DNA of 64,000 nucleotides from Rothia nasimurium (GTDB lineage Bacteria; Actinomycetota; Actinomycetes; Actinomycetales; Micrococcaceae): the NCBI RefSeq assembly GCF_014217215.1, contig NZ_CP056080.1, positions 2,232,001 through 2,296,000 on the forward strand. The letters are read 5' to 3'. The translations under genes and the position numbers were made by a program. Positions 8,185-36,565 of this stretch are shown piece after piece (positions within the stretch are counted from its first letter, which is position 1; each line of letters starts with the position of its first letter). The notes under the pieces were generated by a model. That model saw only the letters and a program-made list of their open reading frames with translations. It had not been told where the DNA came from and made no database searches.

Positions 8185-9117
8185 TTAGCTGTTGTAGCCA
8201 GCGGGGGTTACGAAGATCGGTGCGGACGCGGTGGGCAGGTTCACCGAGAAGATGGAAGTGCCCATGCCGTTCCAGCCACCGTGCACAGCCTGGCCGTTGC
8301 CAATGTAAACAGCGATGTGCTGCTGACCGAAGCCGTTGGACTGGTAGAGAACCAGGTCGCCAGGCTGGGGGTTGGAGGTTACGCTGCCGAGTGACATGTA
8401 GTCCATGGGCCAACCGTGGAAGTTGATGCCAGCGGCGCGCAGGGAGTTGGTTGCCAGCATGGTGCAGTCAGTCTGAGCATTGACAGCTGCAGCGGCCAGG
8501 GCGGCAGCTACAACAGCGTCGCGCTTAGCCTGGTTGGTGGCGGTGGAAAGAGTGGGGGCTGCTGCGGGAGCAGGAGCCTGAGCTGCAACAGGAGCTACAG
8601 TCTCAACAGGAGCGGGAGCAGCCTCTACAACCTGAACGGTTTCGGACTGAACAGCAACAGTGGCTTCCTCAACGGGAGCTTCTTCAACGACGGGGGCTTC
8701 CTCTACAGGAGCTTCGACGGGTGCCTCTTCGACAACCGGAGCTTCCTCTACGGGAGCTTCTTCAACGACGGGGGCTTCCTCAACGGGAGCTTCTTCAATA
8801 ACAGGGGTTGCCTCGACGGGCTTTTCGGGGGCTACGATGTAAGCGGGAACGCCCCAGCTTACGATCTTGCCTTCACCTGCAACGGCGAATGCCTTGAGCA
8901 GGGGGGCTGAAACAGCTGCACCGTTGTCTACGGTGGTCTGCGGGGCTTCATTGACGGCTGCGTTTGCTGCTGCGAGAACAGCACCGGACAGGATGACGCC
9001 TACCGCACCTACTGAGAGTGAACGACGCAATGTTGTACCTTTCGTCTCTTCTTGAGATTTCGCAGCCGGGTTGCTGCTACTGCTGGGTGGCCCGTACGTG
9101 GGGTTTTGGGCTCCCAT
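8185..9117 (-). CDS. Secreted NlpC/P60 peptidoglycan hydrolase with PVEEAP repeats
   Basis: Up to 310 residues. An RRSLSVGAVGVILSGAVLAAANAA segment forms a signal or anchor helix. A long acidic proline-rich stretch of PVEEAPVVEEA repeats (about residues 100-155) probably spans the cell wall. The C-terminal ~120 residues resemble NlpC/P60: the likely catalytic Cys is in TDCTMLATNSL and the His in QQHIAVYIGNGQAVHGG, with PGDLVLY between. NlpC/P60 enzymes cut peptide stems of peptidoglycan. Two starts are possible: ATG at 9117 (GAGGGA upstream) or TTG at 9030 (GAAAGG 7 nt upstream), which would give a classical signal peptide. The repeat region is repetitive at DNA level (about 8655-8830). Confidence 0.82.
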   Translation of the reverse strand: MGAQNPTYGPPSSSSNPAAKSQEETKGTTLRRSLSVGAVGVILSGAVLAAANAAVNEAPQTTVDNGAAVSAPLLKAFAVAGEGKIVSWGVPAYIVAPEKPVEATPVIEEAPVEEAPVVEEAPVEEAPVVEEAPVEAPVEEAPVVEEAPVEEATVAVQSETVQVVEAAPAPVETVAPVAAQAPAPAAAPTLSTATNQAKRDAVVAAALAAAAVNAQTDCTMLATNSLRAAGINFHGWPMDYMSLGSVTSNPQPGDLVLYQSNGFGQQHIAVYIGNGQAVHGGWNGMGTSIFSVNLPTASAPIFVTPAGYNS

Positions 9118-10633: not shown

Positions 10634-10698
10634 GAATGTGACTCCTTTTCCCGAGCGGGCGTTAAAACAACACCCGTTCGGGAAAAGGAGTCGCATTC
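10634..10698. terminator. 30-bp-arm palindrome upstream of pirin
   Basis: Arms 10634-10663 and 10669-10698 pair over all 30 positions (27 Watson-Crick, 3 G-U) with a 5-nt loop. It contains GACTCCTTTTCCCGA. It may be a strong bidirectional terminator, or the edge of the AT-richer accessory segment that begins here. Confidence 0.6.
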
Positions 10699-11031
10699 AA
10701 GGGTGGCTATCAGTATGCTCTTCAGCCGTGAAGCTAACCATAAACTCGGTATCCGCTAGGTAGGTTCGGCTCACGCTAGATGTGCTACCCTAAGTATCCG
10801 GTATAAACACTAGGTTTTTAGCGCTACTGAACTTCACGCTCTAGGCTAAGAATGGGCAACGGTAAAAAAAAATTATCTTTACCTTCACGCTGCTACGCTA
10901 CCAAGATATTCGCCAAGTGCATCAACAACCCCAGTTGGAAAACCCAACCTGAACAAGCCTTATACCCAAGTATTGAAGGTGCTAATGGAGGAGCACCCCG
11001 GTTATGCTACGTTCCCAGAAGACTGGAAATT
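10699..11031. other. AT-richer non-coding stretch, possible gene remnant
   Basis: No convincing gene. One plus-strand frame around 10859-11063 reads like a protein remnant (KVLMEEHPGYATFPEDWKFYG) but lacks a start and ribosome site. Another open frame over 10852-11136 overlaps the end of the lipoprotein gene and looks spurious. The base composition is unlike that of the core genes nearby. Confidence 0.35.
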
Positions 11032-11595
11032 CTATGGAATAACCCACCCTATAGAGCCATCTCCATAGGCAAGTACGCCGCTCTGAGAGTTTACTTCCAG
11101 AACTATAGATCCACGGGTTGCTTCGCCTGCTGTTAGGTGCTCTGCAGGTCGCCCTACTGGGTCGTCACAGAATTGGCTGGCATTGCTACCCCATACATTT
11201 GGCTGAGTGAAACCCTCTGAGTCTTTCCACTCAAAAGAGCTAAAAGGTACATCTAGCCCATCCGGGAATGACTCTCTAAAAGCGTCATTGTCGAGCGCTT
11301 CGAGAGCGTACTCAATTTTTAACAGATAGTTACCTGCTACTGGTTCTTCCGACCATGTCGTGGGGCACTCCGTGACGAATTCAGCTGAGGTTAGGGTCAT
11401 ACTAGCTAGGTCGCCTTTGTCGTTGTACCAGGTGATTGGTTCCCCGATAGCCTTATCGGCTGGAGTGGCTGGAGCAGAAGCACTGGTTACAGTTTCGCTG
11501 GGCTGGACAGCGGTGGTGGTTTCTTGATCCCCGCTGCAACCGGTGAAAACTACCAGAAGTAGGGCGCATACAGTAAGCGTGTTTACTTTTTTCAT
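11032..11595 (-). CDS. Putative lipoprotein, unknown function
   Basis: 187 residues. A basic start (MKKVNTLTV), a hydrophobic core and the lipobox FTGC at about residue 20 indicate a lipid-anchored exported protein. A Ser/Thr/Ala-rich linker follows. The rest (about 55-187) looks like a beta-rich extracellular domain with two cysteines, broadly like DUF4352-type domains (inference only). It lies inside the AT-richer accessory segment. Confidence 0.65.
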   Translation of the reverse strand: MKKVNTLTVCALLLVVFTGCSGDQETTTAVQPSETVTSASAPATPADKAIGEPITWYNDKGDLASMTLTSAEFVTECPTTWSEEPVAGNYLLKIEYALEALDNDAFRESFPDGLDVPFSSFEWKDSEGFTQPNVWGSNASQFCDDPVGRPAEHLTAGEATRGSIVLEVNSQSGVLAYGDGSIGWVIP

Positions 11596-11739
11596 ACCTA
11601 AATTTTATTCGGAGAACCCTTCGCTAATCGTGATGTTACACGGTGCATCTGCACACTGAAATCGGCAATTTTGAATCGGCCATAAAATACGCTGTTACTG
11701 CTTCAAAAGCGCAACGACAAACGCCCTATTACAGAGAGC

Positions 11740-12009
11740 TTGCCCGCAGCATGGGTAACCCCCTGGGACGATAACCCGCAGCATACCTATTTCATGAGCG
11801 CCGAGAATATAGCAAAAGCGCTAGGAACCTACAGAATCCAGGTAGACCGCATGCTCAAGGAAACACCCCTAGAACCCGATGCTATTGCGGGGTACTACAC
11901 CGGCTATCTACCTCAGACTGTGGCCCATTGGATTGGCTACTACTTCCCTAACCTGCTCTCTACGGAGCTGCTTGTCACTATCAATAAATATCCTGACCGT
12001 GATTCCTAA
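11740..12009 (+). CDS. Small hypothetical protein, possibly the remnant of a larger gene
   Basis: 89 residues from a TTG at 11740, or 71 from an ATG at 11794; neither has a good ribosome site. Not recognised; no signal or TM segment is evident. An overlapping frame just upstream (11643-11768, GTG start) encodes AIKYAVTASKAQRQTPYYRELARSMG-like sequence and also looks protein-like. The two may be halves of a frameshifted gene. It ends 27 bp before a 20-bp-arm hairpin, so transcription in this direction is plausible. Confidence 0.35.
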   Translation: MPAAWVTPWDDNPQHTYFMSAENIAKALGTYRIQVDRMLKETPLEPDAIAGYYTGYLPQTVAHWIGYYFPNLLSTELLVTINKYPDRDS

Positions 12010-12036
12010 TCAGCAATAGCACATAAGACCGTATGC

Positions 12037-12080
12037 ACATACAGCCGTACAACCATAGGTATGGTTATACGGCTGTATGT
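12037..12080. terminator. Bidirectional terminator hairpin
   Basis: 20-bp arms 12037-12056 and 12061-12080 with one mismatch and a 4-nt loop, containing ACATACAGCCGTAC. It separates the small ORF at 11740 from the convergent recombinase gene. Confidence 0.75.
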
Positions 12081-12116
12081 ATATATGTTTATTTTTACCT
12101 TGCTTTGACTAGGTGT

Positions 12117-12677
12117 TTAGTTTCTATTAGCTCGTTTGATACGGGTAATAGTTGAGCGCGACACCCCAAAAGATTGAGCCACCTGGGATTCACTGAGACC
12201 GGATTCGATAGCTGCTAGAACCGCCTGCTGTTGTGTCTTATCCAGCTTAGGGCGGCGGCCTCCAACCCGCCCCTGTGCCCTGGCATGAGCTAGACCCTCA
12301 CGGGTGCGCTCCACAATTAGGTTGCGCTCAAATTCAGCCATCGAGGCTAGCACGCTAAGAACTAGCCTCCCGGCAGGGGTGCGCGTATCTAATTGTGTAT
12401 CTAAGGCTTCTATGGATATACCCCTGCTATCAAGGTCTTGGACAGTGCGGAGAATGTCGACAGTGGAGCGTCCAAGCCTATCTAGACGGGTTACTACGAT
12501 TGAATCTTTTTCTCTCGCGTACTCCAGCGCCGCTTTAAGACCAGGGCGGTTAGCAAGCATCCCAGAAGCAGTATCAGTAAAGATTTTTTCGCATCCATGC
12601 TGTCCGAGTTGCTGGCGCTGGTTATTGATGGACTCTGCTTGTTCGCGGGTTGAGACTCTAATGTATCCAATCTTCAT
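12117..12677 (-). CDS. Serine recombinase (resolvase/invertase family)
   Basis: 186 residues, the usual length for TnpR/Hin-type enzymes. YIRVSTREQ carries the nucleophile Ser9 and Arg7; TRLDRLGRS supplies R64, D66, R67 and R70 of the active site. MAEFERNLIVERTREGL is the long dimerisation helix. The C-terminus (SESQVAQSFGVSRSTITRIKR) is the helix-turn-helix DNA-binding domain. It would cut and rejoin DNA at a res- or inversion-type site. No transposase is nearby, so this is an orphan. It overlaps the upstream membrane-protein gene by 4 bp (ATGA). Confidence 0.93.
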   Translation of the reverse strand: MKIGYIRVSTREQAESINNQRQQLGQHGCEKIFTDTASGMLANRPGLKAALEYAREKDSIVVTRLDRLGRSTVDILRTVQDLDSRGISIEALDTQLDTRTPAGRLVLSVLASMAEFERNLIVERTREGLAHARAQGRVGGRRPKLDKTQQQAVLAAIESGLSESQVAQSFGVSRSTITRIKRANRN

Positions 12678-13093
12678 ATCTCAGGCCTGACAGGAGAGTT
12701 GGCACGGTACATAATGATTAGTTCAACCGCCTTGGCAGCCTGCATCCTAGGTATTTGTCGTTTGAAGAGCCTCCTCACGCCAAATAGAAACAGGACTATA
12801 ACAAGAGCTACCATGAACAGCTTAGGGTAAGTGGTTGGATCAGCCTGCTTAGCATAGATTTCAGCAAAAACATCAGTAGTATACACAAGAGCAATCGCAA
12901 TAATGATGGAAGCTCTTTGGAACACAGCCCCTGCTCCCGTTTGTGTATAGGCTGAATCTACGAGTGCTTGTTCTTCAAGAGATGCCCCCACTCCTGGAAG
13001 ACCACGGTACTCCAGTAACTGATTAACCTCAGAAATACGATTAGACCTTTTCGTTTTCTCACCTGAGCGCTTGATAGATATTTCTACTTTCAT
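12674..13093 (-). CDS. Two-TM membrane protein coupled to the recombinase gene
   Basis: 139 residues, not recognised. A basic N-terminus (~50 residues) is followed by two hydrophobic segments (about 58-75 and 90-108) and a short basic tail. Its stop overlaps the recombinase start as ATGA, which suggests coupled translation and transfer as a unit. The upstream region (13115-13232) holds four TGACGCA motifs that could control it. Confidence 0.65.
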   Translation of the reverse strand: MKVEISIKRSGEKTKRSNRISEVNQLLEYRGLPGVGASLEEQALVDSAYTQTGAGAVFQRASIIIAIALVYTTDVFAEIYAKQADPTTYPKLFMVALVIVLFLFGVRRLFKRQIPRMQAAKAVELIIMYRANSPVRPEI

Positions 13094-13114
13094 TCATGCT
13101 CCTATTACGTTCGT

Positions 13115-13232
13115 TTTTGACGCACTAACCGACATTCAAGGAATAAGACTCAAACGCCCTGATACTTGCGTCAAAACACTGCGTCAGAAATAAAGAGTAT
13201 CAAAATACAGGGCTCAAGCGTTTTGACGCACT
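13115..13232. repeat. Cluster of four TGACGCA motifs, possible res or operator region
   Basis: TTTTGACGCACT occurs at 13115-13126 and 13221-13232. Its inverse TGCGTCAAAA is at 13167-13176, and a further inverse TGCGTCA at 13180-13186. The spacing and mixed orientation resemble the multi-subsite recombination/control regions of serine resolvases. It stands one gene upstream of the recombinase. Confidence 0.5.
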
Positions 13233-13296
13233 GGAGATAATCAACAATATGTTACTTAACCACCTACATGGTGCCATATCAACAGACCAGTTAAAC

Positions 13297-13329
13297 CAGA
13301 AATGACCACCTGCTAGGTGGTCATTTCTG
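13297..13329. terminator. Perfect 14-bp hairpin
   Basis: Arms 13297-13310 and 13316-13329 (CAGAAATGACCACC) with a 5-nt loop. No gene points into it at close range. It may close the accessory segment on this side, mirroring the palindrome at 10634-10698. Confidence 0.6.
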
Positions 13330-13349
13330 ATTTAGATGGTACATAGGGG

Positions 13350-13515
13350 GTGAAACAGGCTCGCAGCGAAGCTGCTGGCTCGGCGGCTGGCGTGAATCGT
13401 CTCGTGAGCGAAGCGAACCAGCAAGAGGGCCGGCAGATGAAGTGAAGCGGGTGCGTCAGCACTCAAGAGCGAACGGAATCACCTGAGCTTGCGAAGGTGC
13501 GAGCCTGCGGAACCC
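13350..13515 (+). repeat. Structured dispersed repeat, copy B
   Basis: It shares long blocks with 782-1012 (AGCGAAGCTGCTGGCTCGG, AAGAGCGAACGGAATC). Between those blocks is an insert containing GGCTGGCGTGAATCG, GCGAACCAGCAAGAGGG and CCGGCAG; similar words occur at 44946-45043 (inverted) and 54495-54599. It ends just short of the stop of the CoA-binding gene. Confidence 0.6.
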
Positions 13516-13530
13516 CTAATGAATAAGCGC

Positions 13531-35578: not shown

Positions 35579-36565
35579 CTAGAAGAGCGCCACCTTCGGC
35601 GGGGCCGGGAAGATCTCGTCGAGGCGGGCGAGTTCGTCCGCGTCAAACCGGCGGACGACGGCAGCCGCGTTCGCGCGCACCTGCTCCTCGGTGGTGGCAC
35701 CGGCAATCACGGAGGCAACCGGCTCCTGCTGGGCCAGCCACGAGAAGGCGACCTGCACCTCGGTCAGGCCACGCTCGGCGGCAAAGGCTGAGAAAGCTTC
35801 GAGCTGATCCCAGTTAGCACCGTCCAAAATATCAGGCTTGATACGGGTCAGGCGCCCATCGGCAGGAGCAAAAGAGCGGGAATACTTACCCGTCAGCAGC
35901 CCGTTGGCCAGGGGGAAGTAGGGCAGCACGCCCAGCCCGAACTCGCGAGCAGCGGGCAGGACCTCAAGCTCAGCACGGCGGTCGAGCAGGTTGTAGTGGT
36001 TTTCAGCCGCAATGTAGCGGTGCCCCAGTGCCCGGCCCAGGTGTTCGGCGTGGGCAATCTGCCAGCCGGTGTGGTTGGACGACCCGATATAGCGCACCTT
36101 GCCCTGCTCAATCAGGGTGCCCAGGGCTGAGAGGGTTTCTTCGATGGGGGTGGCGGGGTCGGGGGTGTGGTGGAAGTAGAGGTCGATGTAGTCGGTGCCC
36201 AGGCGGCTCAGGGACGCCTCAACCGCCCGCATAATGTACCGGCGGGAGCCGCGCACCCCGTGGTCGGTGCCGTTGGCACCGCCCATATCCATACCGAACT
36301 TGGAGACAACTACAATCTCATCGCGGTCGATTCCGGTCTCGCGCAGGGCCCGCCCAAACATGGTTTCAGAAACGCCCGGTTCAGCCCCGTAGATATCGGC
36401 GACATCGAAAAGGGTAATGCCGGCTTCAACGGCAGCGGTGAGGACGGCGTTGGTTCCGGCTTGCGTTTCGGTAGCGGTTTTGGCGCGGCCCAGGTTATTG
36501 CACCCCAGGCCTACGTTTGAAACGGTGAGGCCGCTTTTTCCCAGTTGACGGTATTCAATGCTCAT
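35579..36565 (-). CDS. Aldo/keto reductase
   Basis: 328 residues from the ATG at 36565; an ATG three codons upstream (36574) is equally open. A TIM-barrel NADPH oxidoreductase of the YajO/Kv-beta-like group. The tetrad is visible: D (FDVADIYG), Y (DIYG), K (VVSKFG) and H (YFHHTPD). Cofactor residues lie in IAGATTEEQVRAN near the C-terminus. The substrate is not predictable. It is 71 bp from the cyclodeaminase-like gene, so it could be co-transcribed with it. Confidence 0.88.
   Translation of the reverse strand: MSIEYRQLGKSGLTVSNVGLGCNNLGRAKTATETQAGTNAVLTAAVEAGITLFDVADIYGAEPGVSETMFGRALRETGIDRDEIVVVSKFGMDMGGANGTDHGVRGSRRYIMRAVEASLSRLGTDYIDLYFHHTPDPATPIEETLSALGTLIEQGKVRYIGSSNHTGWQIAHAEHLGRALGHRYIAAENHYNLLDRRAELEVLPAAREFGLGVLPYFPLANGLLTGKYSRSFAPADGRLTRIKPDILDGANWDQLEAFSAFAAERGLTEVQVAFSWLAQQEPVASVIAGATTEEQVRANAAAVVRRFDADELARLDEIFPAPPKVALF

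Follow-up and report, generated by a model that had tools for sequence, protein, structure and literature searches.

The closest described relatives of the locus reported here are the resolution systems of small serine recombinases. Site II of the Sin system is a head-to-tail arrangement, and many systems use such res sites (PMC2428073). In the Tn3 system tnpR adjoins site III, and transposons of this family embed toxin–antitoxin genes beside res I (PMC7157771). Here, we analysed a 64,000-nucleotide stretch of Rothia nasimurium (GCF_014217215.1, contig NZ_CP056080.1, positions 2,232,001 to 2,296,000; hereafter the window), which sits in a 2.53-Mb genome of three contigs. In positions 10699-13280 of the window, a gene for a two-transmembrane (two-TM) protein and a gene for a small serine recombinase lie next to a cluster of four TGACGCA motifs. 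These motifs appear to fit a composite recombination site, made of a site I, a Sin-like site II, and a third inverted pair, and the locus is probably a resolution module of plasmid or transposon type that was left stranded on the chromosome.

The four TGACGCA motifs, which an earlier note on this DNA had described as lying upstream of the genes in mixed orientation, are found at 13118-13124 (+), 13167-13173 (−), 13180-13186 (−), and 13224-13230 (+), and span 113 bp. None of 2000 dinucleotide-preserving shuffles of 10699-13340 reached even three copies per 118 bp (maximum two, in 6 shuffles), and the largest cluster in 200 shuffles of the whole window was likewise two (21 shuffles). The motif itself is not rare, with 13 copies in the window as compared to 8.2 expected; the cluster of four is not due to chance. 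A fifth copy at 13452 falls inside an unrelated dispersed repeat and was ruled out as a part of the site.

The proposed site I is an imperfect 28-bp dyad (13097-13124, minus strand) with the putative crossover core AA at 13110-13111, located 3 bp upstream of the start codon of the operon. Its dyad shows 8 of 14 matches at this centre versus 1-4 at shifts of 1-6 bp. The proposed site II (13167-13189, minus strand) is a head-to-tail pair, TTCTGACGCA / TTTTGACGCA, 13 bp apart, and the proposed site III (13196-13230, minus strand) is an inverted pair, TGCGTCAAAA ... TTTTGATACT. Counted from the core in the direction of the operon, the outer inverted motif lies at -120, its partner at -95, and the head-to-tail motifs at -79 and -66, followed by TGCGTCAAAAACG, which reaches the core AA.

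This layout recurs at four other loci, in genomes G025, G007, G011, and G030, which were aligned with the window on the site I half. The best dyad centre is identical at all five loci (8 or 9 of 14 matches versus at most 7 when shifted by as much as 6 bp), and the motif pair with 13-bp spacing, counted at up to two mismatches per motif, is present 66-81 bp from the core in every one of them, while mononucleotide shuffles yield such a pair 0-2 times per 5000. An inverted-repeat site I combined with a head-to-tail site II, as in Sin, is therefore seen by sequence at 5/5 loci. The outer site III motif was found at -119 to -123 in four of the five (exact in two, with two mismatches in two, where it may be due to chance; absent in G011), and the inner one only in the window and G007. 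The core dinucleotides across the five loci are AA, TT, TT, TT or AT.

A gapped pattern drawn from these loci, which requires an exact half site and would be escaped by more divergent sites, matched exactly the same five among 395 family genomes, all belonging to Rothia, and a backward-read control pattern had zero matches in the same set. At up to two mismatches, the site I half occurs at 17 places in 13 of 35 Rothia genomes, including the five described loci. The second pair was absent beside the further matches inspected (G030 C18, G004, G018, G025, G028, G032, G029, G013, G021, and G003 C1:232196). By the half-site search at the same tolerance, as well as by alignment, one site was found in the genome of the window. 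A candidate res site for the genus is now available, as defined by these alignments. Some other stretches resemble parts of it. A TGTGTCA variant of the site I half was seen at four places (G018, G025, G028, and G032), with TTTTGACACA upstream in G032, and a recurring TGTGTCAAAAACGACCGTT stretch was found in L117, L119, L120, and L121 (G025, G018, G028, and G032), where all four contigs contain a distant recombinase match some kilobases off. The G032 variant and the TGTGTCAAAAACGACCGTT stretch may represent a related site of another recombinase. The site I pattern also appeared in viral contigs, in 13 stretches of near-identical context in which sites II and III were not apparent; these were set aside.

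To the right of site I, a passenger gene and then a recombinase gene follow at four of the five loci, the recombinase being intact in two cases and truncated or decayed in two. In the window the order is site, two-TM gene, and recombinase. The like site of G025 is followed by a different partner, a 151-aa protein, and by the closest relative of our recombinase (75% identity). In G007, a hydrophobic product encoded in two overlapping frames precedes a truncated recombinase (61% over 57 residues), and in G011 a GNAT gene precedes a decayed one (69% DNA identity over 201 bp). The passengers of these loci showed no mutual matches at E 0.1. On the far side of the site, related divergent gene pairs are present in G025 and G011 (L063:9366-10017 and L114:4167-4777; 44% and 25% identity); one member of each pair matches ribbon-helix-helix, below the cut-off in G011, and their layout suggests toxin–antitoxin-like pairs. 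These two genomes also share 109 bp at 83%, a block that coincides with the site and runs from site II to slightly beyond the core. The G007 module (L113:3566-5450) precedes a T2SSF gene and follows a fragment without Pfam match, which we take to resemble cpaF; it probably lies inside a tad pilus locus.

The recombinase gene (12117-12677, minus strand) encodes 186 aa with a Resolvase domain (PF00239, E 4e-45) and an HTH_7 domain (PF02796, E 1e-8), both above the cut-off, which places the protein among the small serine recombinases. A homologue with 68% identity is located on the R. terrae plasmid p1, and others are found on Micrococcus and Kocuria plasmids. After filtering, 83 distinct homologues were retained, and a quick tree united the window recombinase and all 13 rows labelled coupled in a 23-row clade (support 100 in the Shimodaira–Hasegawa-like approximate likelihood ratio test, SH-aLRT). 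In the slot proposed for this clade, the stop of the passenger would coincide with the recombinase's own start codon; in the window, the TGA stop of the two-TM gene (12674-13093, minus strand) shares letters with the recombinase ATG, as ATGA.

ATGA overlaps are common in operons, and any open reading frame (ORF) that runs into an xTGA start in this frame has to stop at it. The overlap by itself therefore does not prove selection, and the evidence lies in the frame bias. Among 17 homologues of at least 51% identity with an xTGA start, 11 show an open frame of at least 85 codons ending at that TGA, as compared to 2/17 and 0/17 for the other two frames, the limit of 85 codons having been chosen after the table was seen. 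Lineages such as those with an ATGGC start are mostly devoid of such a frame. One of the 11, L172, has merely a 7-codon ORF, which leaves 10 usable ORFs of 70 to 840 aa, including that of the window; the L009 passenger could be an accidental ORF of GC-rich DNA.

These ten passenger ORFs have no mutual matches at E 0.01. With the partners from G025, G007, G011, and R. terrae included, 15 sequences gave a single matching pair at E <=0.1, namely the two GNAT proteins, from L010 and from G011 (29% across 65 residues, E 2e-5). L010, L011, and L012 have recombinases with 82-94% identity to each other, yet their passengers are unrelated; in L168 and L169, DNA homology begins within the recombinase start codon. 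The passenger of L179, with MmeI domains and a padloc score of 1044 bits, is a type IIG restriction-modification enzyme, that of L178 is an HsdS-like specificity protein, and that of L010 is GNAT-like, slightly under the Pfam cut-off. The L138 passenger (375 aa, behind a methyltransferase-like frame, without family match) may be a restriction enzyme, judging from a motif. Nine passengers were scanned, and for five of them, in addition to L138, neither Pfam nor padloc gave a match. On R. terrae p1, a HEPN-like gene (E 9e-5, below the cut-off) lies 91 bp upstream of the recombinase. Two recombinase genes with 55-56% identity on the 42.9-kb contig C3 of the window's own genome (G000:C3:14184-14732 and 35634-36183) are damaged, one by an internal stop and the other by a split across two frames.

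No relative of the two-TM protein was found in 58 related genomes besides its own, nor among 72,556 plasmid and 50,697 phage records, and six short peptide patterns gave none in a wider genome contig collection; a two-TM protein family was dropped, since relatives were absent from all sets searched. The two membrane segments were assigned by eye and by a low-confidence single-sequence model (mean predicted local distance difference test score, pLDDT, 62; predicted template modelling score, pTM, 0.25) with helices at 54-81 and 90-113. Because the slot of the recombinase clade holds unrelated genes, even at 94% recombinase identity, the two-TM gene appears to be a passenger in a variable slot, coupled to the recombinase via ATGA. 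The earlier note had called this partner unexplained and suggested looking for the pair in other genomes. The pair did not recur in the sets searched, and the recombinase is accompanied by unrelated partners elsewhere; the presence of the two-TM gene can now be explained in this way.

The surroundings of the operon point to a variable spot of the chromosome. The region 10699-13280 has a GC content of 47.9% as compared to 60.5% across the window, in agreement with the AT-richer patch of the note, and the genes listed there were found together with the ATGA overlap. They include an accessory gene for a putative lipoprotein (11032-11595, minus strand; an ORF whose lipobox-like start suggests this class, without Pfam match), which need not be part of the recombinase module, and an 89-aa ORF (11740-12009, plus strand) without match in Pfam or among plasmids. 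When the stretches holding hairpins were folded against shuffles, the hairpins proved to be strong as noted, but there are three instead of two. The left one, upstream of the pirin gene (10634-10698), has a fold z of -10.4, and the stretch 13286-13340, with the terminator-like right one behind the coenzyme A (CoA)-binding gene (13281-13346), has a z of -8.5. The third lies between the convergent 89-aa ORF and recombinase (12032-12085, z -7.2); it is a possible transcription stop of the module and was absent from the output of a simple terminator scan.

The outer hairpins do not belong to the patch but are shared chromosomal features. Six close relatives (G002, G005, G011, G012, G014, and G018) have the CoA-binding gene with the adjacent right hairpin in whole or part (86-92% identical in G002, G011, and G005; partial in G012, G014, and G018). 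Both sides were compared in G002, G012, G005, and G018, and the right side only in G011 and G014. The alignment continues to the end of the left hairpin in G002 and G012, while G005 and G018 share the pirin gene without this hairpin, cas5 being closer to the pirin gene in G018. Judged from these alignments, the outer hairpins are the chromosomal edges of a hot spot. Between them, the content of five relatives (G002, G005, G011, G012, and G018) differs from that of the window, and conserved synteny, which would have spoken against the note, was not observed.

Genes of the clustered regularly interspaced short palindromic repeats (CRISPR)-Cas system occupy this spot in G005, G011, and G018, each with a cas6e match. 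The G018 genes match Cas5, CT1975, Cse1 (the type I-E marker), and Cas1, and those of G011 match CT1975 and Cas1; the presence of CRISPR arrays was judged by repeated translations alone. Both G002 and G012 contain a short ORF matching the Cas3 HD domain (tested in G002; the G012 ORF reads the same), along with an EF-G-like gene (also tested in G002), which resembles tetracycline ribosomal-protection genes. Across the spot (L054, L056, L057, L058, and L059), CRISPR-Cas genes occur in two opposite gene orders, or the Cas3 HD fragment and the EF-G-like gene occur instead. The window itself retains 74 bp (10710-10783, minus strand) with 84% identity to G018 L057:1181-1254, within a gene that matches Cas_Cas5 (PF09704, E 4e-24). 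The strain therefore presumably once had CRISPR-Cas there, and a chromosomal spot is revealed where this system was lost or exchanged. A cas6e gene persists elsewhere in the genome (C1:1509345), as does a match in 20 of 35 Rothia genomes.

A stretch of about 180 bp that separates the right hairpin from the CoA-binding gene is absent from 6/6 relatives and corresponds to a dispersed modular repeat (window 13340-13529 and 784-861, ends GGGGGTGAAACAGGCTCGCA / TGCGAGCCTGCGGAACCCC). The genome has at least 51 matching places for this repeat, with 40 of 61 candidates scored. A 91-bp piece of it is present in 19 of 35 Rothia genomes, with at least 25 copies in ten. By its sequence, it resembles miniature inverted-repeat transposable elements (MITE) or repetitive extragenic palindromes (REP). 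Elsewhere in the window, 8185-9117 encodes a protein rich in VEEAP-type repeats, whose DNA yields another clustered 7-mer.

These results suggest how the module would work. The recombinase would bind the composite res site that immediately precedes its own operon, with site I serving for strand exchange and the head-to-tail site II and third inverted pair being regulatory. When two sites lie in direct repeat on one supercoiled circle, such as a dimer or cointegrate, exchange at the AA core of site I would lead to resolution. One translationally coupled passenger, here the two-TM protein, would sit between site I and the recombinase, be made together with it, and be swapped over evolution. As a single site was found in the genome, the recombinase is probably idle at present, with nothing to resolve. 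The module lies in the hot spot, whose former type I-E CRISPR-Cas locus would have been lost save for the relic, and the module and this loss may be connected. The resolution module without a transposase that the note had envisaged agrees well with the recurrence of the site beside homologous recombinases with other partners. The motifs expected beside close homologues are present at the closest one, in G025.

Several observations weigh against this assignment. The closest solved structure is a DNA-invertase (4m6f, which we take to be Gin; E 2e-41), ahead of gamma-delta, Tn3, and Sin (E 1.5e-17). The composite site was not seen beside the 68% homologue of R. terrae p1, which has an insertion sequence upstream, and was not recognised by eye upstream of the passengers of 51-60% homologues. 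At the G030 site, no recombinase match was found within 12 kb around it, and a promoter scan found nothing at the site of the window. The 109 bp shared by G025 and G011 show that the site is conserved while the genes flanking it are related on one side and not on the other, and are no proof of exchange at the core. Of the 2.6 kb, the recombinase alone matched any plasmid, and no replication or partition gene was seen; the proposed plasmid origin therefore rests on the relatives.

An integrative cassette, in which the recombinase inserts a circle of passenger and recombinase into a resident site by crossover at site I and excises it again, would turn recombinase-free sites such as that of G030 into empty or used targets. 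It would also suit G025 and G011, in which the gene pairs to the left of the site are related and the genes to its right are not, and the different places of the modules (a CRISPR spot here, a tad-like locus in G007). However, integration of a circle would place a second site at its other end, and no such site was found in this genome; resolvase-type sites with regulatory repeats usually favour deletion over integration. The small integrative element with precise ends raised in the note fares no better, as the cas5 relic adjoins the left hairpin and a chromosomal, terminator-like hairpin lies at the right edge, and among the repeats listed no direct repeat joins the two edges. We consider integration quite unlikely. 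It is extremely improbable that the passenger is switched on and off by DNA inversion: the E 2e-41 match to a DNA-invertase speaks for it, but inversion needs two opposite crossover sites flanking a segment, whereas one was found in the genome, and the accessory motifs resemble further recombinase sites instead of a distant enhancer.

That the repeats are an operator or promoter region repressing the operon, with strand exchange no longer involved, would be consistent with site I covering the leader, and Tn3 resolvase autoregulates at res (PMC7157771). Because site I stops 3 bp before the start codon, the recombinase may indeed also repress its own operon. However, an operator has no need of a 28-bp dyad around a dinucleotide core or of a head-to-tail pair, both of which belong to a recombination site; the two roles can coexist, and repression as the sole one is very unlikely. 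It is highly improbable that the two-TM protein and recombinase act jointly as one defence or maintenance system, for which one could cite the ATGA overlap, the restriction genes among the slot relatives, and resemblances in padloc, to SAVED_TM for the two-TM protein (E 0.02) and to KwaA for the G007 partner (E 0.003). These matches are weak, the two-TM gene was found nowhere else searched, and the recombinase has unrelated partners. A stranded resolution module with an exchangeable passenger remains our preferred explanation. A broader version of it is rather doubtful: the clade would keep a one-gene slot for unrelated genes, including several restriction or defence genes, with site I or the gene edge as the exchange point, and recombinase plus res would form a cassette spreading single defence genes among actinobacterial plasmids and chromosomes. 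If true, the genes upstream of this recombinase clade would offer a cheap route to new defence or maintenance genes.

The locus shares features with several known systems. With Sin and related res systems it has in common the protein family and a catalytic site I with a head-to-tail regulatory site II (PMC2428073). In contrast to Sin, the site is 134 bp with a third inverted pair instead of 86 bp, a passenger separates site I from the recombinase, and the protein is distant (E 1.5e-17 versus 2e-41 for the DNA-invertase). As DNA-invertase, gamma-delta, and Tn3 all outscore Sin among the solved structures, and the protein is nearer to DNA-invertase and gamma-delta, we do not class it as Sin despite the Sin-type layout of the site. 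With Tn3 and gamma-delta it has in common that as many as three sites of two motifs each precede a small serine recombinase. However, site II is head-to-tail here, unlike the Tn3 regulatory sites (PMC2428073), and site I instead of site III faces the recombinase operon (compare PMC7157771). There is also no transposase: 10699-13280 has no long ORF of the tnpA kind, and five ORFs scanned included no transposase, terminal repeats not being searched as such. The resolvase system of Salmonella genomic island 1 (SGI1) sits on a genomic island and acts on multimers (PMC12217951), whereas no island integrase or conjugation gene was recognised in 10699-13280. A limited literature search returned no title or abstract start describing a slot like the one here, and among the listed papers that mention both Rothia and resolvase, none treats such a system, to judge by the titles. 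The acquisition of accessory genes right beside res site I, which has happened repeatedly, is known already from the toxin–antitoxin genes of Tn3-family transposons (PMC7157771). In our case the passenger separates site I from the recombinase, with which it overlaps, outside any transposon, and this coupled single-gene slot is what appears to be new.

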